NCBI RefSeq assembly: GCF_964031085.1
Contig: NZ_OZ035001.1
Span: 372,001-436,000, forward strand
Direction of reading: 5' to 3'
DNA: 64,000 nucleotides
DNA from: Spiroplasma endosymbiont of Asaphidion curtum
Lineage (GTDB): Bacteria; Bacillota_I; Bacilli_A; Mycoplasmatales; Nriv7
The notes under the pieces were generated by a model. That model was given only the letters and a program-made list of their open reading frames with translations, was not told the DNA's origin and ran no database searches. Positions 9,429-63,361 of this stretch are shown in pieces. The translations under genes were made by a program, and so were the position numbers. The number at the start of each line of letters is the position of its first letter. Within the stretch, counting starts at the first letter, position 1.

Positions 9429-10513
9429 AGACTTCTTGCATTACTTATTTATTAAACAAAATTCCTATAAAATATATTTAAAATAGAAATTATAAGGAAT
9501 TTAAGATTATGAAATTTGATAAATTTAATTTTATTAATGATAAAGAATTATTACGATTAACTGGAATAAAGCAAAGTACTTTTAATAAAATGTTAAATAT
9601 TTTAAAAGAAGCTGAGTTAAAAAAGTTTAAAAGAGGTGGTAAAAATAATAAATTATCATTAGAAAATAGATTATTGATGACTTTATCATATTGACGAGAA
9701 TATCGTACTTATTTTCATCTTGGTAAAAGTTTTGATATTAGTGAAGCTAGTTGTTATCGAAATATCAAGTGAATTGAAGATATTTTAATCAAACATCCTG
9801 ATTTTCAACAACTTGCTGGTAAAAAAGCATTAATAAATGATTATTTTAATGATAAAACAATTATTATTGATGCTACAGAAACACCCATTTAACGCCCAAA
9901 AAAAGACAAAAACAATCTTATTCAGGAAAAAAGAAAAAACACACTATTAAAACACAAGTAATTATTGAAAAAGAAAGCAAAATAATTATTGTAACAAATT
10001 TTTCTCTCGGTAAAAAGCATGATTTTTGTTTATTTAAAGAATCAAAAATCCCAATTTTAAAAAATACTAAATTAATAGTTGATAATGGTTATCAAGGAAT
10101 ACAAAAAATTCATAGTAATGTTTCTAATACCTAAGAAAAAAACAAAGAAAAACCCTTTAAATAAAGAACAAAAACATAATAATAAATTAATTTCAAAAAT
10201 GAGAATTATTATTGAAAATATTTTTGCTATTCTTAAAAAATTTAAAATTATTACTGAAAAATATCGTAATCGTAGAAAACGATTTAGTTTAAGATTTAAT
10301 TTAATTGCTTCAATTTATAATTTGCAATTATAGATAACATAAAATATTTATTTAAAATTAAATTTAAATAATAAAATAATTTTTTGTTGTGTCAAAATTT
10401 ACACATTTAATAAAATCCATAAGTATTAACCTAATAAAAGTTAGAAATTACTATATAGTATTTTTTATTTACAAATAATTTGTAATTATTTTAATAAGTA
10501 ATGCAAGAAGTCT
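9429..10513 (+). mobile_element. IS-A copy c (decayed)
   Basis: Ends AGACTTCTTGC and GCAAGAAGTCT, flanked by a perfect ATT duplication (9426-9428 and 10514-10516). It is 1085 bp because of one inserted T. It separates the terminase start from the integrase gene. Confidence 0.88.
9509..10333 (+). pseudogene. IS5-like transposase, nonsense and frameshift (copy c)
   Basis: Same transposase as copy a but dead. The CAA codon after ACACCCATT is TAA (about 9889-9891), stopping translation before the A7 slippery run. An extra T near 10121 (GTAATGTTTCT instead of GTAATGTTCT) shifts the distal frame. One further change (ATTGTAACA for ATTGCAACA) is seen. Confidence 0.85.
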
Positions 10514-24397: not shown

Positions 24398-24441
24398 AGA
24401 CTTGGTACATAACCTTTAATTTTATCTACTATTTTGATAAT
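24398..24441 (+). repeat. MITE-B copy 1, left part (interrupted by IS-A copy e)
   Basis: AGACTTGGTACATAACC end followed by the MITE body up to GATAAT, where IS-A starts at 24442. The MITE resumes at 26615. Target triplet ATT on the left (24395-24397). Confidence 0.85.
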
Positions 24442-24521
24442 AGACTTCTTGCATTACTTATTTATTAAACAAAATTCCTATAAAATATATTTAAAATAGA
24501 AATTATAAGGAATTTAAGATT

Positions 24522-25345
24522 ATGAAATTTGATAAATTTAATTTTATTAATGATAAAGAATTATTACGATTAACTGGAATAAAGCAAAGTACTTTTAATA
24601 AAATGTTAAATATTTTAAAAGAAGCTGAGTTAAAAAAGTTTAAAAGAGGTGGTAAAAATAATAAATTATCATTAGAAAATAGATTATTGATGACTTTATC
24701 ATATTGACGAGAATATCGTACTTATTTTCATCTTGGTAAAAGTTTTGATATTAGTGAAGCTAGTTGTTATCGAAATATCAAGTGAATTGAAGATATTTTA
24801 ATCAAACATCCTGATTTTCAACAACTTGCTGGTAAAAAAGCATTAATAAATGATTATTTTAATGATAAAACAATTATTATTGATGCTACAGAAACACCCA
24901 TTCAACGCCCAAAAAAAGACAAAAACAATCTTATTCAGGAAAAAAGAAAAAACACACTATTAAAACACAAGTAATTATTGAAAAAGAAAGCAAAATAATT
25001 ATTGCAACAAATTTTTCTCTCGGTAAAAAGCATGATTTTTGTTTATTTAAAGAATCAAAAATCCCAATTTTAAAAAATACTAAATTAATAGTTGATAATG
25101 GTTATCAAGGAATACAAAAAATTCATAGTAATGTTCTAATACCTAAGAAAAAAACAAAGAAAAACCCTTTAAATAAAGAACAAAAACATAATAATAAATT
25201 AATTTCAAAAATGAGAATTATTATTGAAAATATTTTTGCTATTCTTAAAAAATTTAAAATTATTACTGAAAAATATCGTAATCGTAGAAAACGATTTAGT
25301 TTAAGATTTAATTTAATTGCTTCAATTTATAATTTGCAATTATAG
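24522..25345 (+). CDS. IS5-like DDE transposase by -1 frameshift (copy e)
   Basis: Same organisation and intact A7 slippage run as copy a. IS30 copy 3 starts 36 bases after the stop, so the coding part is untouched, but the right end of the element is displaced. Confidence 0.82.
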
Positions 25346-25380
25346 ATAACATAAAATATTTATTTAAAATTAAATTTAAA

Positions 25381-26464
25381 TGCCAAATTGTAAAGTTAAG
25401 TGCAACTAAATTATTTTTCTAACCAAATATTCGATTGGTGAAAGATAATTTAGTATTTTTCTTGGTCTTTGGTTTAAAGACAATATAAATTTATGAACTG
25501 CATTTTTAGTAGTATTTGAAAAATTAAATTTTTTAGGAAATTTTTCTCTAATTAAACCATTAGTATTTTCATTAGTACCTCTTTGTCAAGGCGAATACGC
25601 ATTAGCAAAATAAATTTTCACATTTAAATTTTTTTCAAGTTGTTGTCAATTAGAAAATTCTTTACCCCTATCAAATGTTATAGTCTTAACAAGATTATTT
25701 GGAAGAATTGATAAATAATGGCTAATGTTTTCGTTAACAACTTTAGTAGTTCTATTTTCAACTAACATTGCTAAAGTAAATCTTGATGTTCTTTCAACTA
25801 AAGTTATTAAACATGATTTACTTTTACCTCGTGATGATACTACAGTATCACCTTCTCAATGACCAACAGTTATACGATTATTAACATTAATATTTCGTTC
25901 TTTAATTGATTTACCATTAAATTTACCGCGATTTTCTTGAGATTTTCGTTTCTTACCTTTTCTTCTTAAATTTTTATTAGTAACTTTTTCAAGTAATCCA
26001 GAATAAATTCAATTGTAAATTGTTTTAAAACTAATAATTCATTCTTTATGAAAATTTTTAATTCTGCCATAAATTTGTTCAGGCGATCAACCTAATAGTA
26101 ATTTTTGTTGTACATATTTTACTAATTCTCTATTTTTAAACTTATGAAAATAAACATGTGATTGTTTTCTGTTTTCTGCTTTATTTTGTGCAATTAATGA
26201 AAAATAATGATTACTATCTTTATTTCTATTGACTTCTCGAATAATAGTACTAATACTTCGATTAAGATTTTTAGCTATTTCACTAATTTTTACTTTAAAC
26301 TTCAATTGATTCTCAATATAAATTCTTTCATATATGCCAAGATGTTTGTAACCCATATAAAAACTCCTTGCTTTGTTTTTTCTAAAATAAACTTAGCATC
26401 ATGAAATTTTTATATGAGATTTTTTGCAATTTTATTTACTTGCACTTACAAGTATAATTCAGCA
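25381..26464 (-). mobile_element. IS30-family element copy 3, inside IS-A copy e
   Basis: Complete 1084 bp, orientation opposite to the host transposase, with about two duplicated A residues at the target. The insertion point is about 10 bases further right in IS-A than that of copy 1. Confidence 0.9.
25406..26356 (-). CDS. IS30-family transposase (copy 3)
   Basis: 316 residues, fully open with TGA as Trp, with the IS30 helix-turn-helix and DDE residues as in copy 2. Confidence 0.93.
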
Positions 26465-26614
26465 AATAATAAAATAATTTTTTGTTGTGTCAAAATTTAC
26501 ACATTTAATAAAATCCATAAGTATTAACCTAATAAAAGTTAGAAATTACTATATAGTATTTTTTATTTACAAATAATTTGTAATTATTTTAATAAGTAAT
26601 GCAAGAAGTCTAAT

Positions 26615-26714
26615 ATTATTTCCTAGGTGAAGTACAAATGTTAGATAAATACAAAGACGAAAATGAATTTTATAGTTTGGTAGGTGCAAAATGTTATAGT
26701 TATGTACCAAGTCT
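26615..26714 (+). repeat. MITE-B copy 1, right part
   Basis: Continuation of the element begun at 24398, ending GTTATGTACCAAGTCT with ATT (26715-26717) as target duplication. It contains ATG at 26639 opening LDKYKDENEFYSLVGAK, which resembles the start of the IS-A transposase (FDKFNFINDKELLRLTGIK) and suggests origin from a full transposon by internal deletion. Confidence 0.85.
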
Positions 26715-26717
26715 ATT

Positions 26718-27330
26718 ATACAAAAATTCTTAAAATCATTAGAAAAATGGCAAAACCGATTAAAAATTGAAAGGTATAGTAAAAGGCTGGCAAAAAGATA
26801 TTATTGGAAAATAAGGGTACTAATAATAATTTATTAGCAATTGATGCTACAGAAATTCCAATTGAAAGAATTAAAAAAAACTAAAATTATTATTTTCTGG
26901 TAAGAAAAGGCAACATTCATTAAAATCGCAAATAATTATTGATTTATTTAACAATAAAATTATTTCAGTAGATTTTTGTTATGGCAGTATTCATGATTAT
27001 AAGTTATTTTTAAAATCAAATACACTTATAAATCCAAAATTAGAATTAATTGTTGATTCAGGATATCAAGGTTTGCAAAATGTTCATAAAAATACATTAT
27101 TGCCAATTAAAAAGAGTAAAAATAATCCTTTAAATCCAGATAAAAAGGAATATAATAGCTTTTTAAGTAAAGTTAGAATTGCCATTGAACATGTTTTTGC
27201 TAGATTAAAAAGATTTAAAATACTAGTTTATCGTTATCGCAATAAGATTAGAAGATTTGGATTACGATTTAACTTAATTTCAGGAATATATAGTTTTGAA
27301 TTAAGCTAGTTATAGTTATGTACCAAGTTT
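26718..27330 (+). pseudogene. IS-B: second IS5-like transposase, 5' deleted and decayed
   Basis: The distal half of an IS5-like transposase distinct from IS-A. The first catalytic region is AIDATEIPIERIKK, then an A8 run with the same kind of -1 shift as in IS-A, then LLFSGKKRQHSLKSQIIID, LIVDSGYQGLQNVH and RIAIEHVFARLKRF. The stop is at 27307-27309. The element ends TAGTTATAGTTATGTACCAAG (27308-27328), nearly the right end of MITE-B. The 5' half contains many stops. It is the best candidate for the source family of MITE-B. Confidence 0.78.
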
Positions 27331-27333
27331 TAT

Positions 27334-27899
27334 GAAAAAACAGTCGCTTTGTTAACACAATGTAGTTCAGAATATAACGAATCACTAATCTTTGCTCAAG
27401 AAATACAATACATTAATAATGAAGTTCAAAAAATGATAATTGGAAAAAAGCAATTAGATAATATTATTAATATGATTAATTATCGGATTAAAGCATTAAA
27501 TATTAATTATACTCAACAAAACCAAAAGGAAATTTTTAATTTTTTACAACAATTAATTGCTATTGAAAATATTTCAACTATTAGAACATATTTAGAAAAT
27601 ACACCAATAAATTTAAATATTGATCAATCAATAGACTTGGTACATAACTATAACATTTTGTACCTACCAAACTATAAAATTCATTTTCGTCTTTGTATTT
27701 ATCTAACATTTGTACTTCACCTAGGAAATAATATTATCAAAATAGTAGATAAAATTAAAGGTTATGTACCAAGTCTAATGTATTTTTATATGCTTAATAA
27801 ATTAGCAAGAAATTGTGTTCAAGCAACAAGGTATTTAGATAGTTGAAGTTTATCACATAATAACAATAAAAAATCAGTTATGTATCAACGCGATAAGGT
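27334..27899 (+). pseudogene. Unknown gene, truncated by IS-B and IS30, with MITE-B inserted in frame
   Basis: The open frame starts within the IS-B border (YEKTVALLTQCSSEY) and continues with helical, Asn/Ile-rich sequence (KQLDNIINMINYRIKAL, FNFLQQLIAIENIS). At 27633 MITE-B enters. Because MITE plus 3-bp duplication is 147 bases and one MITE frame lacks stops, translation continues for 49 extra residues and back into the original frame (MYFYMLNKLARNCVQATRYLD). The frame ends in or just after the IS30 at 27903; in the reconstructed empty site it would end DKVLK. No family was recognised. Confidence 0.55.
27633..27776 (-). repeat. MITE-B copy 2 (complete, 144 bp)
   Basis: Ends AGACTTGGTACATAAC and GTTATGTACCAAGTCT, perfect AAT duplications (27630-27632 and 27777-27779). 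This is the clearest complete copy. The orientation given follows the putative transposase-start remnant. Read on the plus strand it carries a stop-free frame (DLVHNYNILYLPNYKIHF and onward). Confidence 0.9.
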
Positions 27900-42612: not shown

Positions 42613-42852
42613 GTAAAAATATTAGTTAAAATTTAATAAAATTAATAATTTTTTATTGTGTAAAAATTCAATAATATGATAAAATGAAAACGAATAAAAT
42701 GACAATAACAAGAAAGGTATGGTTAGTTTAGTAATTAAATAATAGACTTCTTGCATTACTTATTAAAATAATTACAAATTATTTGTAAATAAAAAATACT
42801 ATATAGTAATTTCTAACTTTTATTAGGTTAATACTTATGGATTTTATTAAAT

Positions 42853-42972
42853 AGACTTCTTGCATAACCTATTAAAATAATAAAAATTTTAAATTTAACC
42901 ACTTTAAAATAAACATTTTTCTAAAATCTAAAATAATTTTGATAACAATTAACTAGGTTATGCAAGAAGTCT
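42853..42972. repeat. MITE-A, 120 bp, inside IS-A copy h
   Basis: Starts AGACTTCTTGCATAACCTA and ends with the complement of AGACTTCTTGCATAACCTAG, flanked by a perfect AAT duplication (42850-42852, 42973-42975). The body is AT-rich with no coding frame. Its ends share the first 13 bases with IS-A, then resemble MITE-B (ATAACCT), so it probably belongs to a third related transposon. Only copy in the window. Confidence 0.88.
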
Positions 42973-43046
42973 AATGTGTAAATTTTGACACAACAAAAAA
43001 TTATTTTATTATTTAAATTTAATTTTAAATAAATATTTTATGTTAT

Positions 43047-43870
43047 CTATAATTGCAAATTATAAATTGAAGCAATTAAATTAAATCTTAAACTAAATCG
43101 TTTTCTACGATTACGATATTTTTCAGTAATAATTTTAAATTTTTTAAGAATAGCAAAAATATTTTCAATAATAATTCTCATTTTTGAAATTAATTTATTA
43201 TTATGTTTTTGTTCTTTATTTAAAGGGTTTTTCTTTGTTTTTTTCTTAGGTATTAGAACATTACTATGAATTTTTTGTATTCCTTGATAACCATTATCAA
43301 CTATTAATTTAGTATTTTTTAAAATTGGGATTTTTGATTCTTTAAATAAACAAAAATCATGCTTTTTACCGAGAGAAAAATTTGTTGCAATAATTATTTT
43401 GCTTTCTTTTTCAATAATTACTTGTGTTTTAATAGTGTGTTTTTTCTTTTTTCCTGAATAAGATTGTTTTTGTCTTTTTTTGGGCGTTGAATGGGTGTTT
43501 CTGTAGCATCAATAATAATTGTTTTATCATTAAAATAATCATTTATTAATGCTTTTTTACCAGCAAGTTGTTGAAAATCAGGATGTTTGATTAAAATATC
43601 TTCAATTCACTTGATATTTCGATAACAACTAGCTTCACTAATATCAAAACTTTTACCAAGATGAAAATAAGTACGATATTCTCGTCAATATGATAAAGTC
43701 ATCAATAATCTATTTTCTAATGATAATTTATTATTTTTACCACCTCTTTTAAACTTTTTTAACTCAGCTTCTTTTAAAATATTTAACATTTTATTAAAAG
43801 TACTTTGCTTTATTCCAGTTAATCGTAATAATTCTTTATCATTAATAAAATTAAATTTATCAAATTTCAT
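43047..43870 (-). CDS. IS5-like DDE transposase by -1 frameshift (copy h)
   Basis: Same as copy a on the minus strand, A7 run intact. The MITE lies downstream of the stop and does not touch the coding part. Confidence 0.82.
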
Positions 43871-43991
43871 AATCTTAAATTCCTTATAATTTCTATTTTA
43901 AATATATTTTATAGGAATTTTGTTTAATAAATAAGTAATGCAAGAAGTCTAATATAATTAGCTGATTGTTTTACTTCTTCAAAGCAATACC

Positions 43992-44056: not shown

Positions 44057-44188
44057 AATTAGGTTGTTAAATAAAATACTGTACATTACAATTCCCTTGT
44101 TTTATAGGTGCCGATATGTGATGAATTGACAATAAAAAATGTCATAACACCATTTATTTATGCAACTATGATTCAAGGAGGAAAAAAT

Positions 44189-45376
44189 ATGAGTTTTAAA
44201 GAACTAAATTTAAAGGATAATAATATAAGTTTTAATGATTTAAATTTAAAGGATGATAATAACAATAATATAAGTTTTAATGACTTAAATTTAAATAATA
44301 ACTTAAAGCGAGCAATTTCAAAGGCAGGTTATGTTAACCCTACTGAAATTCAAAAGAAAACAATTCCTTTAGTATTAAAAAATTATGATATTATTGGAAA
44401 AAGTCATACAGGAACAGGAAAAACTGCTGCTTTCGTATTACCAATCTTAAATAATTTAGATGTTAAACTACGAAGAGTACAAGCAATGATTGTTTGTCCA
44501 ACAAGAGAGTTAGCATTACAAGTTTTAGATCAAGTAAGAAAATATGCTTTTTATTTAGAAGGAGTTAATGCGACAGCATTATTTGGTGGTTCTGATTTGC
44601 GAAGACAAATTTATAGTTTAAAAAATAGTAATATTGTTGTTGGAACACCCGGAAGAATTGTTGATCATATTCAACGCAGAACTTTAAGATTGAATGATAT
44701 TCAAACTGTAGTTTTAGATGAAGCTGATGAAATATTAAAAATGGGATTCAAACAAGATATTGATAAAATATTTACTAGCATTACATCAAAGTATCAAACA
44801 TTATTGTTTTCAGCAACAATGAATCGTGCTGTTTTAGAAGTTGCTAATAACTATCAAAATAGTCCGGTTCAAATAAGTATTAAAAGAAATGCTGATGAAT
44901 TAAATAATATTAAACAATATTTTATTAATACAAGAAATACAAGTAAAGATAGAGCATTAGTGGATTTATTTTTGAAAATTCAACCAAATTTAAGTATTGT
45001 TTTTTCTAATACCAAAGCATATACTGAAAGAATTTCTAAAATATTATGAGAAAATGGTATTAAGTCAGCTGTTATTAATGGTGATAAGCGACAAAGTGAA
45101 AGAAATAAAGCAATGAATGCTTTTAGAACTAATAAAGTTCAAGTGTTAATTGCTACTGATGTAGCAGCACGGGGAATTGATGTTGATGGGATTGATTATA
45201 TTTTTAATTATGATTTACCTCGTGAACAAGAAAGTTATGTGCATCGTATTGGAAGAACAGGACGAGCTGGCGAAACTGGAATTGCAATTACATTAGTAAA
45301 TAATAAAAAAGAATTAATTGATATTAAAAGATTAGAACAAACTTTAAACATTAAGATTAATCCTTACAATATTTAA
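44189..45376 (+). CDS. deaD: DEAD-box RNA helicase (CshA/DeaD type), copy 1
   Basis: 395 residues; unwinds RNA in ribosome assembly and mRNA turnover, usually important in the cold. A low-complexity N terminus has two SFNDLNLK(D)-type repeats. Q motif: GYVNPTEIQKKTIPLVL; motif I SHTGTGKT; Ia PTRELALQ; II VLDEADEILKMGF; III LLFSATM; V LIATDVAARGIDV; VI HRIGRTGRAGETG. The C-terminal extension is very short. One TGA (45047-45049) encodes Trp. ATG 44189 follows AAGGAGG. The second copy is 15 residues longer. Confidence 0.93.
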
Positions 45377-45402
45377 TACTGAGTTTAAGTATGTTATAGA
45401 AG

Positions 45403-45430
45403 AACATCATTTTAATTAATGATGTTTTTT
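45403..45430 (+). terminator. Terminator after deaD copy 1
   Basis: AACATCATT / AATGATGTT stem with loop TTAATT and a T-run, 27 bases after the stop codon. Confidence 0.82.
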
Positions 45431-45435
45431 ACTAT

Positions 45436-45564
45436 AGACTTGGTACATAACCTTTAATTTTATCTACTATTTTGATAATATTATTTTCTAGATGAAGCAC
45501 AAATATTAGATAAATATAAAGATGAAAGTGAATTTTATAGTTTGGTAGGTGCAAAATGTTATAA
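45436..45564 (+). repeat. MITE-B copy 3, right end missing
   Basis: Left end AGACTTGGTACATAACC and about 125 bases of body, including the remnant start LDKYKDESEFYSLVGAK. The right terminal repeat after GCAAAATGTTATA is replaced by unrelated sequence. Duplicated at 51607-51735. Confidence 0.8.
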
Positions 45565-45809
45565 AAACTAAGTAAAATGCTTATAAAAACAACATTAAAA
45601 TAATTTTTTATAACAAAAATCATACATAAGAAATATATACTTAATTTGCATATTGAAATAATTTATAGTAAATGATTATTTTTTCTTTTTTAAAAAATAC
45701 TTAAGAAAACTAAACGCGACCAAATTAAATATTAAATTTGCAAAAATTATCAAGATTTATTAAAATTATTTGCAAAGTTAAATACTTTTTAATAAGTAAG
45801 GAGAAAAAA
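45565..45809 (+). other. Leader of the ABC operon with 71-base repeat
   Basis: No gene. From 45651 to 45721 it matches 63361-63431 with about two differences, ending TAAGAAAACTAAACGCGACC. A ribosome site AAGGAG is directly before the ATPase start. No strong promoter consensus could be fixed. Confidence 0.5.
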
Positions 45810-46721
45810 ATGAAATTTTCAATTATTGTTGAACGATTAATAAAAAATTATCGGAATTTTAAACTTAATGATATATCATTTAAAGTTAGTAGTGGAAAGA
45901 TGCATGCTATTATTGGCGCTAGTGGTAGTGGGAAAACAATTACGATTAAATCATTAGTTGGTGGTATTAATTATGATAAGGGTAAAATTTATATAAATGG
46001 TCAAAATGCTAAAAACTCATTAGCAAAACAAACTATTGGGTATGTTCCAGAGTTTACTAAATTTCCTCGTAATATTACAACTTATCGTTTTTTAAAATCA
46101 CTAGCTAAAATGAATGGTTTAAAAAATAAACAGATTAAATGAAGATTACAATCATTAATGCAAGAATTTAATATTTGAGAATTTCGTAATAAAAATATGA
46201 ATGCTTTTTCTAGCGGTATGAAAAAGAAAGTAATGTTAATTCAGGGAATTATTCATAATCCGGATATTTTAATTTTAGATGAACCTGAAGCAAATTTAGA
46301 TACAACAACAAGAAAACAAATTTTAGGTTATTTAAGAACACTAGTCAATCAAGGTAAGACGGTCTTTTTTTCAACTCATTTATTAAATGAAGTCAAGGAT
46401 GTTATTGATGAATGTTCAATTATTTATCTAGGTAATTTATTATATAGTGGTCCAATTAGTGGTTTTCAATTAACAAATTCATTTGTTATTGAATGTGAGG
46501 ATAATGAAGCGATGGTGGCATTTTTTAAAGATAATGATGTTGACTATTTTGTTAGAGAAGCAAGTAATGACCTTTTCTTTAAATTAAAAAATTCGTTAGA
46601 AATTAATAAAATCTTTCTTTACGCGATTGAATATAATCTAATTATTTATCGAATTGAACCATATACGATTGATTTAGATTTCTTTTATAATACTTTAAAT
46701 AGTGAAAAATTTAATTTGTAG
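45810..46721 (+). CDS. ABC transporter ATP-binding protein, copy 1
   Basis: 303 residues. Walker A GASGSGKT (~residue 35), Q-loop region IGYVPEFTKFPRN, signature AFSSGMKKKVMLIQG (variant of LSGGQ), Walker B ILILDEPEANLDT, H-loop FFSTHLLNEV. About 85 C-terminal residues form an accessory domain. It pairs with the permease 14 bases downstream and resembles the DrrA/YxlF type of exporter ATPases. ATG 45810 is chosen because AAGGAG precedes it; the frame is open further upstream without a ribosome site. Trp residues near 46140 come from TGA. Substrate not known. Confidence 0.9.
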
Positions 46722-46735
46722 GAAAGGAATAAAAT

Positions 46736-48433
46736 ATGAAATTTTTATCAAGAAATAGTTTTTTACCAATTTTTAATTTTGCTTTAAGAAAAATATTGGT
46801 TTCCTTGCTAACATTAGTAATTGAAATTATTGCTTCATTAAGTCTTATAATAGCAACAATAGTTCTTTTTATTCAGTCAGAAAATGATAATGATAGTTTT
46901 TTAGTAAATTTTCAATATATTATTTTAATATTTTTAAATTTATTATTATTTCTTTTTATTGTTTTAAATGTGGTTCGAATTATTAGTGAAGAAATAGCTG
47001 ATGGAACATTTTTGTTATTAATATCTAAACCTTATTCACGATTTAAAATATTATTTTCTAAATATCTAAGTTTATTATTTGTAGTTTTTTTATTTATTGC
47101 GATTAATTTAGGAATAACTATTTTATTAGGTTATGTTATTAGTGCTATTAATAATAAACACACGCAATTTATTTTACTTTTAAATATGATGACAAAATTA
47201 ATGCTTTTTTCATTATTTCTTAGTTTTGTTGTGTTATCAGGTTCAATATTAACAGCTTTAATATTTTCATCAAATATTGTTTTTTTAATATTAGTTGTTT
47301 TTAGCAGTATGTTTTTATTAGGCGGATTACCATATTCTTTAATTAAAGAAATTAGTAATAAACAAACAGTTAATATTGGTAACGATGCTTTTGATATTAA
47401 TAGTATTAAAGAAATAATGTTATTTAATGATGCTATCAAAAAACCTGAAAATAAACAAACTAATATTAAAATTAAATACTCTAAATTAGTAACTGAGATT
47501 TTTGATTTTTATAATAAATATGAGTATGAACAACTTACAGCATCAAATTTAATGATGATTAATAATGAAAGAATAGCAATGTATAAAAAATTTGATTTAT
47601 ATACTGATGAAATTAAGACATTTACTGCTAACGGTATTATTAAACAATGAACAGGAGACCTTCTTACGAATTTAAAAGGTAAAGATGTTAACTTGCATAT
47701 TCAATTCAAAACATACTTTAAAACATTAGAACAATTAGATGCTAGTAATGAATATCAACATGAACTAATACAACTTATTAATAATGATTTATCACCACAA
47801 GTTGTTGAACTAACTAAAGATAAAAAAGTTTCGTTAATGGAAATAGATATTAACGAAAATGCTCCAATTATTAGTAAAACATATATTGAAGTTAACGGCA
47901 AAAAAATATCTAATTGAAGTCCATTTACTGTTTTCAGAGAGAATTATAATTATGAATTTGATGAGGAGTTATCTGAAAAATATAATGATTTATTTAGTAA
48001 TAAGGTATATTTTGCAATTCAAGAATTGGATAATAATATTTTAGTGAAAGTTCGTTATTTGAAATTATTAACTAATCAATCATTATCAATAAGTAAAAAT
48101 TGGGATGCTTATCAATCATTAATGAAGACATATCGCATTATTAGTTTTGTTAATCTTTTTGAACATTGAAATCAAATGTGGACAACATTTTTAGGATTTA
48201 ATGATTTCTTTTTTAATTCCACAGGTAATTCATATATTGATTTTGATAAACAAAAAAATTATTTAAATTCATATCGTGATTTTGAAATTATAACAAATGA
48301 TGCAGGACATATTGAAGTTCAAAAGATTAATCACATTTTAAATTCAACGGCAATGGCAATTGGTTATGGAATATTAGCAATGCTATTAAATTTAGGTTCG
48401 GTTTTAGTTATTAAACGAAGGGATATTATTTAG
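46736..48433 (+). CDS. ABC transporter permease (ABC-2 type) with large outer domain, copy 1
   Basis: 565 residues. Six predicted helices (about residues 15-45, 55-85, 100-135, 150-180, 180-200 and the last at 535-560). Between the fifth and sixth lies a ~330-residue hydrophilic domain (KLVTEIFDFYNKYEYEQL through DKQKNYLNSYRDFEII) likely outside the cell. The short end is KRRDII. The motif EEIADGTFLLLISKPYSRFKIL is typical of ABC-2 permeases. Several Trp are TGA. AGGAAAGGA precedes the start. Probably an exporter of lipid, peptide or drug together with the preceding ATPase; substrate unknown. Confidence 0.85.
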
Positions 48434-48473
48434 ATTTTCAATGGGTTTGCTTCATTTTATGTAATAAAATTTG

Positions 48474-48482
48474 TGTTATAAT
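48474..48482 (+). promoter_or_regulatory. Extended -10 promoter before ezrA (left copy)
   Basis: TGTTATAAT: consensus -10 with the TGn extension, 34 bases before the ezrA start; the same sequence is in the right copy at 54645-54653. The -35 region is weak, as expected for extended -10 promoters. Confidence 0.6.
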
Positions 48483-48516
48483 TAAAAATGAAATGCAGAT
48501 GCGAGGATTTTAAATA

Positions 48517-49202
48517 ATGAGATTATTTATTAGTTTAAAAGAATGAAATTGATATCATTGAATAATAACCGGGTTAATTTTATTGTTAATATTTACTCTT
48601 ATAATATGACAAATATTATTATTTATTTTACATCAAAGAAAATTTTTAGAAGGTAAAATCATTAATTGTTTAGAAATAATTAAATTATTACCACTTCGTC
48701 AAAGACTATATCGGTTATCAGAAATTGCTAGTTATCATCACGAATTTGAAACAATTTTATCATATTGAATTTTTCTTTATGAAAGCAATAGTCAAGAATT
48801 ATTAGCATTAATAAATGAATCATTAATAATTTTAAAACAAGATCAGCAAGATATTAATAAATTTAGTTTATATAAGTTAAAACAATTATTAGCAAAAATT
48901 AATAAGTTAAATAAAAAATCACGCGCCTTATTATTAGATTATGAAAATGCTCTTAAAATTGAATTAACCCAACGCGAACAAGCATCATTATATAAAAGTT
49001 TTTTTAATCAGTTAGTTAATAATGCTACTAAATTACAAATTCATGTGGCAATAAATCCTAAAAAATTAGATTATTTAATTAATGTTTTACAAAATATGTT
49101 ATATAACTTTGAAATTGAACTAACTAAAGGAGTATTTTTGAAGTCATATCAAATTCTTGATAAGATTGCTATTGGTTTAATTTCATTTACAGAAATTTTA
49201 AA
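48517..49202 (+). pseudogene. ezrA: ezrA 5' fragment (duplicated part), cut by IS30
   Basis: The first ~229 codons of ezrA, identical to the start of the complete gene at 54688. They include the N-terminal membrane helix and the first coiled-coil region, ending at FTEILN where IS30 copy 7 begins. If translated it would give a membrane-anchored partial EzrA that might interfere with the intact protein. Confidence 0.9.
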
Positions 49203-50286
49203 TGCCAAATTGTAAAGTTAAGTGCAACTAAATTATTTTTCTAACCAAATATTCGATTGGTGAAAGATAATTTAGTATTTTTCTTGGTCTTTGGTTTAAA
49301 GACAATATAAATTTATGAACTGCATTTTTAGTAGTATTTGAAAAATTAAATTTTTTAGGAAATTTTTCTCTAATTAAACCATTAGTATTTTCATTAGTAC
49401 CTCTTTGTCAAGGCGAATACGCATTAGCAAAATAAATTTTCACATTTAAATTTTTTTCAAGTTGTTGTCAATTAGAAAATTCTTTACCCCTATCAAATGT
49501 TATAGTCTTAACAAGATTATTTGGAAGAATTGATAAATAATGGCTAATGTTTTCGTTAACAACTTTAGTAGTTCTATTTTCAACTAACATTGCTAAAGTA
49601 AATCTTGATGTTCTTTCAACTAAAGTTATTAAACATGATTTACTTTTACCTCGTGATGATACTACAGTATCACCTTCTCAATGACCAACAGTTATACGAT
49701 TATTAACATTAATATTTCGTTCTTTAATTGATTTACCATTAAATTTACCGCGATTTTCTTGAGATTTTCGTTTCTTACCTTTTCTTCTTAAATTTTTATT
49801 AGTAACTTTTTCAAGTAATCCAGAATAAATTCAATTGTAAATTGTTTTAAAACTAATAATTCATTCTTTATGAAAATTTTTAATTCTGCCATAAATTTGT
49901 TCAGGCGATCAACCTAATAGTAATTTTTGTTGTACATATTTTACTAATTCTCTATTTTTAAACTTATGAAAATAAACATGTGATTGTTTTCTGTTTTCTG
50001 CTTTATTTTGTGCAATTAATGAAAAATAATGATTACTATCTTTATTTCTATTGACTTCTCGAATAATAGTACTAATACTTCGATTAAGATTTTTAGCTAT
50101 TTCACTAATTTTTACTTTAAACTTCAATTGATTCTCAATATAAATTCTTTCATATATGCCAAGATGTTTGTAACCCATATAAAAACTCCTTGCTTTGTTT
50201 TTTCTAAAATAAACTTAGCATCATGAAATTTTTATATGAGATTTTTTGCAATTTTATTTACTTGCACTTACAAGTATAATTCAGCA
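49203..50286 (-). mobile_element. IS30-family element copy 7, at the duplication junction
   Basis: Complete 1084 bp. The left flank is the middle of ezrA and the right flank is the leader of deaD copy 2, so no target duplication exists. This is expected if two IS30 copies at different sites recombined to create the tandem duplication. Confidence 0.93.
49228..50178 (-). CDS. IS30-family transposase (copy 7)
   Basis: 316 residues, open, motifs as in copy 2. Confidence 0.93.
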
Positions 50287-50314: not shown

Positions 50315-51547
50315 ATGAGTTTTAAAGAACTAAATTTAAAGGATAATAATATAAGTTTTAATGATTTAAATTTAAAGGATGATAATAACAATAATATAAG
50401 TTTTAATGATTTAAATTTAAAGGATGATAATAACAATAATATAAGTTTTAATGACTTAAATTTAAATAATAACTTAAAGCGAGCAATTTCAAAGGCAGGT
50501 TATGTTAACCCTACTGAAATTCAAAAGAAAACAATTCCTTTAGTATTAAAAAATTATGATATTATTGGAAAAAGTCATACAGGAACAGGAAAAACTGCTG
50601 CTTTCGTATTACCAATCTTAAATAATTTAGATGTTAAACTACGAAGAGTACAAGCAATGATTGTTTGTCCAACAAGAGAGTTAGCATTACAAGTTTTAGA
50701 TCAAGTAAGAAAATATGCTTTTTATTTAGAAGGAGTTAATGCGACAGCATTATTTGGTGGTTCTGATTTGCGAAGACAAATTTATAGTTTAAAAAATAGT
50801 AATATTGTTGTTGGAACACCCGGAAGAATTGTTGATCATATTCAACGCAGAACTTTAAGATTGAATGATATTCAAACTGTAGTTTTAGATGAAGCTGATG
50901 AAATATTAAAAATGGGATTCAAACAAGATATTGATAAAATATTTACTAGCATTACATCAAAGTATCAAACATTATTGTTTTCAGCAACAATGAATCGTGC
51001 TGTTTTAGAAGTTGCTAATAACTATCAAAATAGTCCGGTTCAAATAAGTATTAAAAGAAATGCTGATGAATTAAATAATATTAAACAATATTTTATTAAT
51101 ACAAGAAATACAAGTAAAGATAGAGCATTAGTGGATTTATTTTTGAAAATTCAACCAAATTTAAGTATTGTTTTTTCTAATACCAAAGCATATACTGAAA
51201 GAATTTCTAAAATATTATGAGAAAATGGTATTAAGTCAGCTGTTATTAATGGTGATAAGCGACAAAGTGAAAGAAATAAAGCAATGAATGCTTTTAGAAC
51301 TAATAAAGTTCAAGTGTTAATTGCTACTGATGTAGCAGCACGGGGAATTGATGTTGATGGGATTGATTATATTTTTAATTATGATTTACCTCGTGAACAA
51401 GAAAGTTATGTGCATCGTATTGGAAGAACAGGACGAGCTGGCGAAACTGGAATTGCAATTACATTAGTAAATAATAAAAAAGAATTAATTGATATTAAAA
51501 GATTAGAACAAACTTTAAACATTAAGATTAATCCTTACAATATTTAA
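50315..51547 (+). CDS. deaD: DEAD-box RNA helicase (CshA/DeaD type), copy 2
   Basis: 410 residues, identical to copy 1 apart from a third 15-residue N-terminal repeat (SFNDLNLKDDNNNNI). All helicase motifs present. Its native promoter is absent; transcription must come from the IS30 end (a TATAAT lies at 50275-50280, pointing outward) or be missing. Confidence 0.93.
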
Positions 51548-51573
51548 TACTGAGTTTAAGTATGTTATAGAAG

Positions 51574-51601
51574 AACATCATTTTAATTAATGATGTTTTT
51601 T
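51574..51601 (+). terminator. Terminator after deaD copy 2
   Basis: Same AACATCATT / AATGATGTT hairpin as after copy 1. Confidence 0.8.
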
Positions 51602-51606
51602 ACTAT

Positions 51607-51735
51607 AGACTTGGTACATAACCTTTAATTTTATCTACTATTTTGATAATATTATTTTCTAGATGAAGCACAAATATTAGATAAATATAAAGATGAAAGT
51701 GAATTTTATAGTTTGGTAGGTGCAAAATGTTATAA
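51607..51735 (+). repeat. MITE-B copy 4 (duplicate of copy 3)
   Basis: Carried along by the tandem duplication; right end missing in the same way. Confidence 0.8.
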
Positions 51736-51980
51736 AAACTAAGTAAAATGCTTATAAAAACAACATTAAAATAATTTTTTATAACAAAAATCATACATAA
51801 GAAATATATACTTAATTTGCATATTGAAATAATTTATAGTAAATGATTATTTTTTCTTTTTTAAAAAATACTTAAGAAAACTAAACGCGACCAAATTAAA
51901 TATTAAATTTGCAAAAATTATCAAGATTTATTAAAATTATTTGCAAAGTTAAATACTTTTTAATAAGTAAGGAGAAAAAA
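51736..51980 (+). other. Leader of ABC operon, copy 2
   Basis: No gene; identical to 45565-45809, including the TAAGAAAACTAAACGCG motif at 51873-51889. Confidence 0.5.
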
Positions 51981-52892
51981 ATGAAATTTTCAATTATTGT
52001 TGAACGATTAATAAAAAATTATCGGAATTTTAAACTTAATGATATATCATTTAAAGTTAGTAGTGGAAAGATGCATGCTATTATTGGCGCTAGTGGTAGT
52101 GGGAAAACAATTACGATTAAATCATTAGTTGGTGGTATTAATTATGATAAGGGTAAAATTTATATAAATGGTCAAAATGCTAAAAACTCATTAGCAAAAC
52201 AAACTATTGGGTATGTTCCAGAGTTTACTAAATTTCCTCGTAATATTACAACTTATCGTTTTTTAAAATCACTAGCTAAAATGAATGGTTTAAAAAATAA
52301 ACAGATTAAATGAAGATTACAATCATTAATGCAAGAATTTAATATTTGAGAATTTCGTAATAAAAATATGAATGCTTTTTCTAGCGGTATGAAAAAGAAA
52401 GTAATGTTAATTCAGGGAATTATTCATAATCCGGATATTTTAATTTTAGATGAACCTGAAGCAAATTTAGATACAACAACAAGAAAACAAATTTTAGGTT
52501 ATTTAAGAACACTAGTCAATCAAGGTAAGACGGTCTTTTTTTCAACTCATTTATTAAATGAAGTCAAGGATGTTATTGATGAATGTTCAATTATTTATCT
52601 AGGTAATTTATTATATAGTGGTCCAATTAGTGGTTTTCAATTAACAAATTCATTTGTTATTGAATGTGAGGATAATGAAGCGATGGTGGCATTTTTTAAA
52701 GATAATGATGTTGACTATTTTGTTAGAGAAGCAAGTAATGACCTTTTCTTTAAATTAAAAAATTCGTTAGAAATTAATAAAATCTTTCTTTACGCGATTG
52801 AATATAATCTAATTATTTATCGAATTGAACCATATACGATTGATTTAGATTTCTTTTATAATACTTTAAATAGTGAAAAATTTAATTTGTAG
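51981..52892 (+). CDS. ABC transporter ATP-binding protein, copy 2
   Basis: 303 residues, no difference from copy 1 noticed. Walker A GASGSGKT, signature FSSGM, Walker B ILILDEPEANLD all present. Confidence 0.9.
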
Positions 52893-52906
52893 GAAAGGAA
52901 TAAAAT

Positions 52907-54604
52907 ATGAAATTTTTATCAAGAAATAGTTTTTTACCAATTTTTAATTTTGCTTTAAGAAAAATATTGGTTTCCTTGCTAACATTAGTAATTGAAATTA
53001 TTGCTTCATTAAGTCTTGTAATAGCAACAATAGTTCTTTTTATTCAGTCAGAAAATGATAATGATAGTTTTTTAGTAAATTTTCAATATATTATTTTAAT
53101 ATTTTTAAATTTATTATTATTTCTTTTTATTGTTTTAAATGTGGTTCGAATTATTAGTGAAGAAATAGCTGATGGAACATTTTTGTTATTAATATCTAAA
53201 CCTTATTCACGATTTAAAATATTATTTTCTAAATATCTAAGTTTATTATTTGTAGTTTTTTTATTTATTGCGATTAATTTAGGAATAACTATTTTATTAG
53301 GTTATGTTATTAGTGCTATTAATAATAAACACACGCAATTTATTTTACTTTTAAATATGATGACAAAATTAATGCTTTTTTCATTATTTCTTAGTTTTGT
53401 TGTGTTATCAGGTTCAATATTAACAGCTTTAATATTTTCATCAAATATTGTTTTTTTAATATTAGTTGTTTTTAGCAGTATGTTTTTATTAGGCGGATTA
53501 CCATATTCTTTAATTAAAGAAATTAGTAATAAACAAACAGTTAATATTGGTAACGATGCTTTTGATATTAATAGTATTAAAGAAATAATGTTATTTAATG
53601 ATGCTATCAAAAAACCTGAAAATAAACAAACTAATATTAAAATTAAATACTCTAAATTAGTAACTGAGATTTTTGATTTTTATAATAAATATGAGTATGA
53701 ACAACTTACAGCATCAAATTTAATGATGATTAATAATGAAAGAATAGCAATGTATAAAAAATTTGATTTATATACTGATGAAATTAAGACATTTACTGCT
53801 AACGGTATTATTAAACAATGAACAGGAGACCTTCTTACGAATTTAAAAGGTAAAGATGTTAACTTGCATATTCAATTCAAAACATACTTTAAAACATTAG
53901 AACAATTAGATGCTAGTAATGAATATCAACATGAACTAATACAACTTATTAATAATGATTTATCACCACAAGTTGTTGAACTAACTAAAGATAAAAAAGT
54001 TTCGTTAATGGAAATAGATATTAACGAAAATGCTCCAATTATTAGTAAAACATATATTGAAGTTAACGGCAAAAAAATATCTAATTGAAGTCCATTTACT
54101 GTTTTCAGAGAGAATTATAATTATGAATTTGATGAGGAGTTATCTGAAAAATATAATGATTTATTTAGTAATAAGGTATATTTTGCAATTCAAGAATTGG
54201 ATAATAATATTTTAGTGAAAGTTCGTTATTTGAAATTATTAACTAATCAATCATTATCAATAAGTAAAAATTGGGATGCTTATCAATCATTAATGAAGAC
54301 ATATCGCATTATTAGTTTTGTTAATCTTTTTGAACATTGAAATCAAATGTGGACAACATTTTTAGGATTTAATGATTTCTTTTTTAATTCCACAGGTAAT
54401 TCATATATTGATTTTGATAAACAAAAAAATTATTTAAATTCATATCGTGATTTTGAAATTATAACAAATGATGCAGGACATATTGAAGTTCAAAAGATTA
54501 ATCACATTTTAAATTCAACGGCAATGGCAATTGGTTATGGAATATTAGCAATGCTATTAAATTTAGGTTCGGTTTTAGTTATTAAACGAAGGGATATTAT
54601 TTAG
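52907..54604 (+). CDS. ABC transporter permease (ABC-2 type), copy 2
   Basis: 565 residues; one substitution from copy 1 was seen (SLVIATIV instead of SLIIATIV in the first helix). With its ATPase it doubles the dosage of this exporter. Confidence 0.85.
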
Positions 54605-54687
54605 ATTTTCAATGGGTTTGTTTCATTTTATGTAATAAAATTTGTGTTATAATTAAAAATGAAATGCAGATGCGAGGATTTTAAATA

Positions 54688-56418
54688 ATGAGATTATTTA
54701 TTAGTTTAAAAGAATGAAATTGATATCATTGAATAATAACCGGGTTAATTTTATTGTTAATATTTACTCTTATAATATGACAAATATTATTATTTATTTT
54801 ACATCAAAGAAAATTTTTAGAAGGTAAAATCATTAATTGTTTAGAAATAATTAAATTATTACCACTTCGTCAAAGACTATATCGGTTATCAGAAATTGCT
54901 AGTTATCATCACGAATTTGAAACAATTTTATCATATTGAATTTTTCTTTATGAAAGCAATAGTCAAGAATTATTAGCATTAATAAATGAATCATTAATAA
55001 TTTTAAAACAAGATCAGCAAGATATTAATAAATTTAGTTTATATAAGTTAAAACAATTATTAGCAAAAATTAATAAGTTAAATAAAAAATCACGCGCCTT
55101 ATTATTAGATTATGAAAATGCTCTTAAAATTGAATTAACCCAACGCGAACAAGCATCATTATATAAAAGTTTTTTTAATCAGTTAGTTAATAATGCTACT
55201 AAATTACAAATTCATGTGGCAATAAATCCTAAAAAATTAGATTATTTAATTAATGTTTTACAAAATATGTTATATAACTTTGAAATTGAACTAACTAAAG
55301 GAGTATTTTTGAAGTCATATCAAATTCTTGATAAGATTGCTATTGGTTTAATTTCATTTACAGAAATTTTAAATAAAATTCCGCAGTTATTAACGATTGT
55401 ATATAAAGTTATTCCTAAGCAATTAAAACAAATGACTACTTTATATATGAATAAAGGAAATGATATTGTTCTTCAAGAGCAGTTTGCTAATTTATTTGAT
55501 GATGTTAATCTTCAAGTTCAGCAAGTTAAAAAATTATTAGATAATTTACAATATAAAAAAGGACAAGTCAGAGTTGAAAAAATTCTGGTTTTGCTAGCTA
55601 ATTTTAATTATCAAACGCAAAAAGAAAAAGAATTAAAAACAATTTTTTCAACTTACTATGACCCAATCATTAAAGTAGTTGAACTAATTGAAAATAGTTT
55701 TAAAAATTTAAAAAAAGAGTTAGTACAAATTGAAACCGTTTATTTATTTTTGCCAATGGAAAAAGAAATAATTAATAATAGTCAAAAATTAGTTAAGAAT
55801 TTAAGTTCGCAAATGAATGAATTAATTGTGATTATGAATCAAACAAAAACTAATTCTTATCATCAATTAGTTAAACTGCAAGTAAAAATTTTAGAAAATG
55901 CTTTAAAAACTCAAGTTCATTTAGAACAAGTATATAAATTAATAACGCAAAAAACTGAAGAAGAAAAACAATTAAAACAGTTGCTTTCGCATTTAGGAAT
56001 TCTATTAATGCAATTAAATGCTAAGTTAAATAAAATTACTTATCAAAAAATTGCATATACTTTCAAAGACCGGATTAGTGATGTTTATAACTCATTTTCG
56101 GAACTTAAGGAATTAATTAGTATTAGTGATGATTTACAAGAACAAAAGCGATTATTACGCAAGTTATATTTATTAAAAGATAATATTTATAAATTGCATA
56201 GTAAAATCAAAAATATTGCTATCATTGATCAATTAATTCAACGAGCAATTGTATATGGTTATAAATTTTGTACTATTGATGATAGTGTTAACAATAAAAT
56301 TAAAAGTGCACAATTAATTTATAACAATGCTAATTATGAAGATGCATTACAGTTAGTATTACAAGCATTAGAATATTCGCATGAGCATCGTTTATATAAA
56401 AGATTGCAAAAAGGATAA
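54688..56418 (+). CDS. ezrA: Septation ring formation regulator EzrA
   Basis: EzrA is a membrane-anchored negative regulator of FtsZ ring assembly in Firmicutes. 576 residues: a single N-terminal helix (WIITGLILLLIFTLIIWQILLF, Trp by TGA), then a nearly continuous cytosolic coiled coil of about 540 residues. Typical are LEGKIINCLEIIKLLPLRQRLY, KLKQLLAKINKLNKKSRALL, QVKKLLDNLQYKKGQVR and the end LQLVLQALEYSHEHRLYKRL. Length and topology fit the family (~560 residues). The neighbour thiI (26 bases downstream) is also near ezrA in Bacillus, which supports the call. AGGATTTTAAATA precedes ATG. Its first 229 codons are duplicated upstream. Confidence 0.82.
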
Positions 56419-63217: not shown

Positions 63218-63361
63218 AGACTTGGTACATAACTATAACATTTTGCACCTATCAAACTATAAAATTCACTTTCATCTTTATATTTATCTAATATTTGTGC
63301 TTCATCTAGAAAATAATATTATCAAAATAGTAGATAAAATTGAGGGTTATGTACCAAGTCT
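63218..63361 (-). repeat. MITE-B copy 5 (complete, 144 bp)
   Basis: Both ends intact (AGACTTGGTACATAAC / GTTATGTACCAAGTCT). The flanking triplets AAT and ATT differ, so the flanks have been rearranged. The plus strand again has a stop-free frame (NILHLSNYKIHFHLYIYL). Confidence 0.88.

Follow-up and report, generated by a model that had tools for sequence, protein, structure and literature searches.

At positions 27633 to 27776 of the window, by which we mean the whole 64-kb stretch of Spiroplasma DNA analyzed here, lies a 144-bp repeat, MITE-B, which a first-pass annotation had described as a MITE that multiplied in the window and arose from IS-B, an IS5-like transposon. The locus raises the question of what this element is, which insertion sequence it came from, and how it reached its present sites. 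We confirmed the 144-bp element and found its inverted ends to be 16 bp long and perfect. With left and right ends taken together, the window contains 8 exact matches to the terminal 16-mer; allowing up to three mismatches raises this number to 11, against an expectation of 0.37. Across the whole genome (1,313,897 bp; 1.31 Mb), these ends appear 284 times (143 + 141) with at most one mismatch, a reversed control appears 0 times, and both ends are perfect in 67 copies of MITE-B. Multiplication within the window is thus real, with five copies there, but is a large understatement for an element found in about 70 places genome-wide.

The coding content of MITE-B is limited to a short N-terminal transposase remnant, with no transposase gene. 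It is short and present in many copies, with TIRs, short target duplications, and ends that it has in common with an autonomous element; it is a non-autonomous mobile element and a clear MITE, new as an element and of a kind already known. Its RNA folds strongly (z −5.1), as is explained by the inverted ends alone. As for a role as terminator or promoter, there is no terminator in the element and promoter-like sites are not in excess. All five copies proposed for the window are present, one of them split in two, and they lie among the following features.

27633..27776, − strand: MITE-B, complete, 144 bp; identified from TIRs, genome copies, and flanks traced to sister genomes, with the strand taken as the direction of the parent transposase remnant.
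24398..24441, + strand: MITE-B, left half, split by IS-B; identified from sequence and from the AAT duplication of the IS-B insertion.
24442..26611, + strand: IS-B inside MITE-B, carrying an IS30-like insertion; identified from the TIR AGACTTCTTGCATTAC, ANT duplications, ORFs, and HTH_Tnp_4.
25406-26356, − strand: IS30-like ORF within that IS-B copy.
26612..26714, + strand: MITE-B, right half after the IS-B split, beginning with the AAT duplicate.
26787..27330, + strand: relic of the 906-bp parent IS, 5'-truncated (parent positions ~363-906), 98.5% identical to the full-length IS.
45436..45563, + strand: MITE-B minus exactly its right 16-bp end, within a 5-kb tandem duplication.
51607..51734, + strand: MITE-B, second copy of the truncated insertion at 45436..45563, produced by the tandem duplication.
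63218..63361, − strand: MITE-B, complete, with mismatched flanks (AAT/ATT); identified from end matches and flanks.

The two copies that had been listed as truncated both exist but represent a single insertion doubled by a 5.0-kb tandem repeat (44179-49203 and 50340-55374, 99.7% identical). An IS30-like element occupies the junction of this duplication (49203-50286), and an EzrA-like gene inside it is truncated in one copy, with 233 versus 577 codons open. The window also contains a second short element, MITE-C (42853-42972; 120 bp), whose ends, AGACTTCTTGCATAAC, are one base off those of IS-B; it is nested in the IS-B copy at 42744-43950, and other copies occur in L030 (712) and L036 (2473).

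The first-pass annotation had offered IS-B as the parent of MITE-B. IS-B is present in eight copies in the window, one of them at 9429-10513, and measures 1083-1085 bp when uninterrupted. It belongs to the same general family as MITE-B, shares the first six bases of the ends, and likewise makes 3-bp ANT target duplications (8/8 window copies). The 16-bp ends nevertheless differ, those of IS-B being AGACTTCTTGCATTAC; full-length IS-B encodes other first residues (MKFDKFNFIN); and its agreement with MITE-B is low, at 53/122 and 13/22 positions. The first-pass annotation had itself named such a mismatch of ends or first codons as refuting its proposal. These ends, first codons, and identity rule out IS-B as the parent and leave it as a sister IS5-family element, so that the chance of MITE-B being an internal deletion of IS-B itself is vanishingly small. 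The sequence at 27308-27328, noted as IS-B, lies in the stretch 26787-27330, which is the truncated parent-IS relic and had been merged with IS-B. The relic is inserted in an ankyrin gene that resumes at its right end.

The insertion sequence from which that relic derives is 906 bp long and present in dozens of genome copies; the relic retains its 3' portion. Compared with this IS, the MITE-B copy at 27633 matches parent positions 1-122 at 117/122 sites and the last 22 bp at 22/22, the 16-bp ends are the same, and the N terminus begins MLDKYKDENEFYSL. The proposals that MITE-B is an internal-deletion MITE of an IS5-family IS, and that its body starts with a transposase N terminus, are therefore both borne out with a different parent. 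In a complete copy of the parent from sister genome G004 (L074), OrfA has 129 residues and ends AAA-AAA-AAC-TAA, with OrfB in the −1 frame. Read-through at A_AAA_AAC yields a 271-aa IS5-family transposase that scores 160.5 bits against NCBIfam IS5 model NF033581 (cutoff 140), exceeds the Pfam cutoffs for DDE_Tnp_4 and HTH_Tnp_4 (PF13359 and PF13613), and has an IS5-type DDE domain. Judged from this arrangement, the parent IS probably makes its transposase by −1 frameshifting at this canonical slippery site. This transposase places the parent IS in the IS5 family, and the element is probably ISL2-like; the duplications are of the ANT type that typifies the ISL2 group of that family (AAT, ATT, or AGT in 36/42). 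Both ORFs are open in L074 and in one copy in the endosymbiont's own genome (L047, C1:510363-511268), so that mobilization of MITE-B in trans by the parent transposase is possible. Since the other own-genome copies are for the most part frameshifted, it is uncertain whether the IS is still active. No full parent that we saw is identical to the MITE body, which has 5-14 differences per 122 bp from L074, and the immediate parent copy was thus not found.

We surveyed the flanks of 69 MITE-B copies and 3 copies of the 120-bp MITE-C. Identical 3-bp flanks border 42/72 elements, as compared with a mean of 22.3 and a maximum of 36 in 5000 shuffles of the flanks; no 4-bp duplications were found among these 72 elements, and 35 of the 42 duplications read AAT or ATT. 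For several insertions an exact unoccupied site can be recognized. In a lipoprotein gene, four sister genomes read GATACAAATATTAAT where this genome reads GATACAAA[MITE]AAATATTAAT; two parent-IS copies have been struck by MITE-B with ATT or AAT duplications; and the EzrA-like gene hit in sister genome G002 is uninterrupted in other genomes. Because of these ANT duplications and exact empty sites, we conclude that MITE-B has transposed. Dispersal of a palindrome by recombination or gene conversion, with no transposition at all, would account for the matching duplications missing from 30/72 elements (42%) and for the copy at 27633, whose flanks stem from two genes, but is scarcely credible given the empty sites and a duplication count that exceeds every shuffle. 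The statement that the copies share 3-bp duplications accordingly holds for many of them but not for all, the mismatched copy at 63218 being one exception.

The left flank of the copy at 27633 matches an ankyrin-repeat gene of G001, with residues up to ..NTPINLNID, and its right flank matches the interior of the next gene in G003, which in that genome starts ~140 bp past the ankyrin gene. The DNA between these two ancestral genes has been lost here, and this copy is therefore not a simple insertion; the AAT that borders it left and right most likely matches by chance, owing to the target preference. The 190-aa ORF that spans the element is chimeric. The simplest cause of these flanks would be a deletion between two MITE copies. 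Only one pair among the copies compared is alike over 30 bases of flank, and copy-to-copy recombination thus remains our inference. The sequence at 26715-26786, beside a MITE copy (ATTATACAAAAATTCTTAAA...), is found again next to another MITE copy, L006, which indicates rearrangement at MITEs. At L116 (G000:C1:1187604-1187747), a MITE-B with mismatched flanks lies in frame where an ABC-ATPase ORF begins, and the upstream part of that gene seems to be missing.

Taken together, these data make it very probable that MITE-B is a non-autonomous internal-deletion derivative of the 906-bp IS5-family IS, presumably mobilized in trans by the transposase of that IS, with flanks that were later scrambled. 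A single internal deletion would have brought the last 22 bp of the parent next to positions 1-~122, and the founder, having kept both 16-bp inverted ends, could have been cut and inserted in trans by the parent transposase, in which OrfA and OrfB are probably linked through a −1 frameshift at A_AAA_AAC-TAA. The element inserts at ANT, mostly AAT or ATT, with a 3-bp duplication, and has multiplied to ~70 copies; later recombination or deletion at the copies may have scrambled many flanks, including those of the 27633 copy.

MITE-B occurs in all five genomes of the genus that we compared: this one has ~70 copies, G002 ~20, and G003 one, with just a few copies in G001 and G004. The junction that joins AAAAT to GTTATAG recurs in the sister genomes with small variants, and its near identity across species speaks for a single deletion in an ancestor, or else for later transfer. 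Copies in G002 differ from their own consensus at a mean of 7.0 positions versus 3.0 in the own genome; judging by this divergence, the expansion here is probably the younger one. A 143-bp relative in G001 (L084, G001:C1:1412854-1412996) has ends inverted over ~24 bp and another right junction, and is possibly an independently formed MITE. The Spiroplasma ixodetis clade includes the symbiont of the beetle Nebria riversi. A 2026 study reports that IS make up 17-41% of S. ixodetis genomes (PMC13085286), and a high mobile-DNA load is therefore normal in that clade.

With its 3-bp duplication, the 144-bp element adds 147 bp, or 49 codons, and one antisense frame is free of stops in 65/65 own-genome and 12/12 G002 copies of 144 bp, so 1/6 of gene insertions should keep frame and add 49 residues. 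The lipoprotein gene is one example, encoding 651 residues without the insert and 700 with it, and the EzrA-like gene of G002 is another, although this gene is now truncated downstream. These features recall the Rickettsia palindromic elements (PMC10969869), which are likewise ~150 bp long, have a stop-free frame, and insert in frame into genes, and they would fit a MITE-B kept for the in-frame insertion of a tolerated 49-residue peptide. That reading is very unlikely. Only 0.5-1.1% of substitutions create a stop in this frame, so that 0.3-0.5 stops are expected and 0 are seen; the frame is stop-poor by composition, and the fact that it is open does not indicate selection. Moreover, 27/36 duplication-bearing copies lie outside ORFs, as opposed to the preferential in-frame residence in protein genes of the Rickettsia elements, and MITE-B further differs from these in its known parent IS and its 3-bp duplications.

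An automatic count of ORF hits gave 4 frames preserved and 5 broken, but inspection leaves one clear in-frame case versus five broken in the own genome, about as the chance of 1/6 predicts, and hence no clear in-frame excess. Among the other in-frame candidates, the MITE at L103 lies upstream of the likely true start, that at L109 lies in a parent-IS remnant, and that at L001 has chimeric flanks. Disrupted long ORFs include recR, another lipoprotein gene, and others. The capacity for in-frame insertion is real, and neither the stop expectation nor the ORF-hit counts gave evidence of selection for it. We consider it possible but doubtful that MITE-B, with its identified parent IS, is a source of in-frame 49-residue insertions such that some host proteins, including the ~700-aa lipoprotein, contain the peptide and still function. 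Two other gene-associated copies are of note. The insertion in recR (L063, G000:C1:31874-32500) is out of frame, and recR of the sister genomes also looks short or broken (open frames of 121-141 codons, with stops in two), which suggests that RecR has been lost in the clade of these genomes. The copy at L171 (around G000:C1:52709-52852) immediately precedes the ribosomal protein L9 gene; its open frame continues into that gene and could affect the L9 translation start.

Among known elements, the parent IS resembles ISCaa3 and its relatives (IS5 family, ISL2 group; Amoebophilus asiaticus, PMC3196728) in size and ORF plan, on which alone we compared them: 906 versus 914 bp, two overlapping ORFs with a presumed −1 frameshift, and a transposase of 271 versus 275 aa. 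ISCaa3 is likewise multicopy in an intracellular symbiont, but the paper makes no mention of a MITE. MITE-B in turn shares with the bacterial MITEs reviewed in PMC10969869 its short length, non-autonomy, inverted ends, target duplication, and related autonomous IS. No mollicute example appears among the '-plasma' names in the scanned text of that review, and titles and abstracts, covering few subscription papers, yielded no MITE-focused paper on Spiroplasma, mollicutes, mycoplasma, or phytoplasma.

MITE-B is thus a high-copy MITE of an insect-associated Spiroplasma for which the parent IS is identified, sister genomes preserve exact unoccupied sites, and a transposase that could plausibly move it is present. 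Its copies provide stretches of homology for the rearrangements that these genomes show. The element also demonstrates that mobile DNA can enter proteins in frame, a behavior known chiefly from Rickettsia, simply through its length and stop-poor composition and without selection for it.
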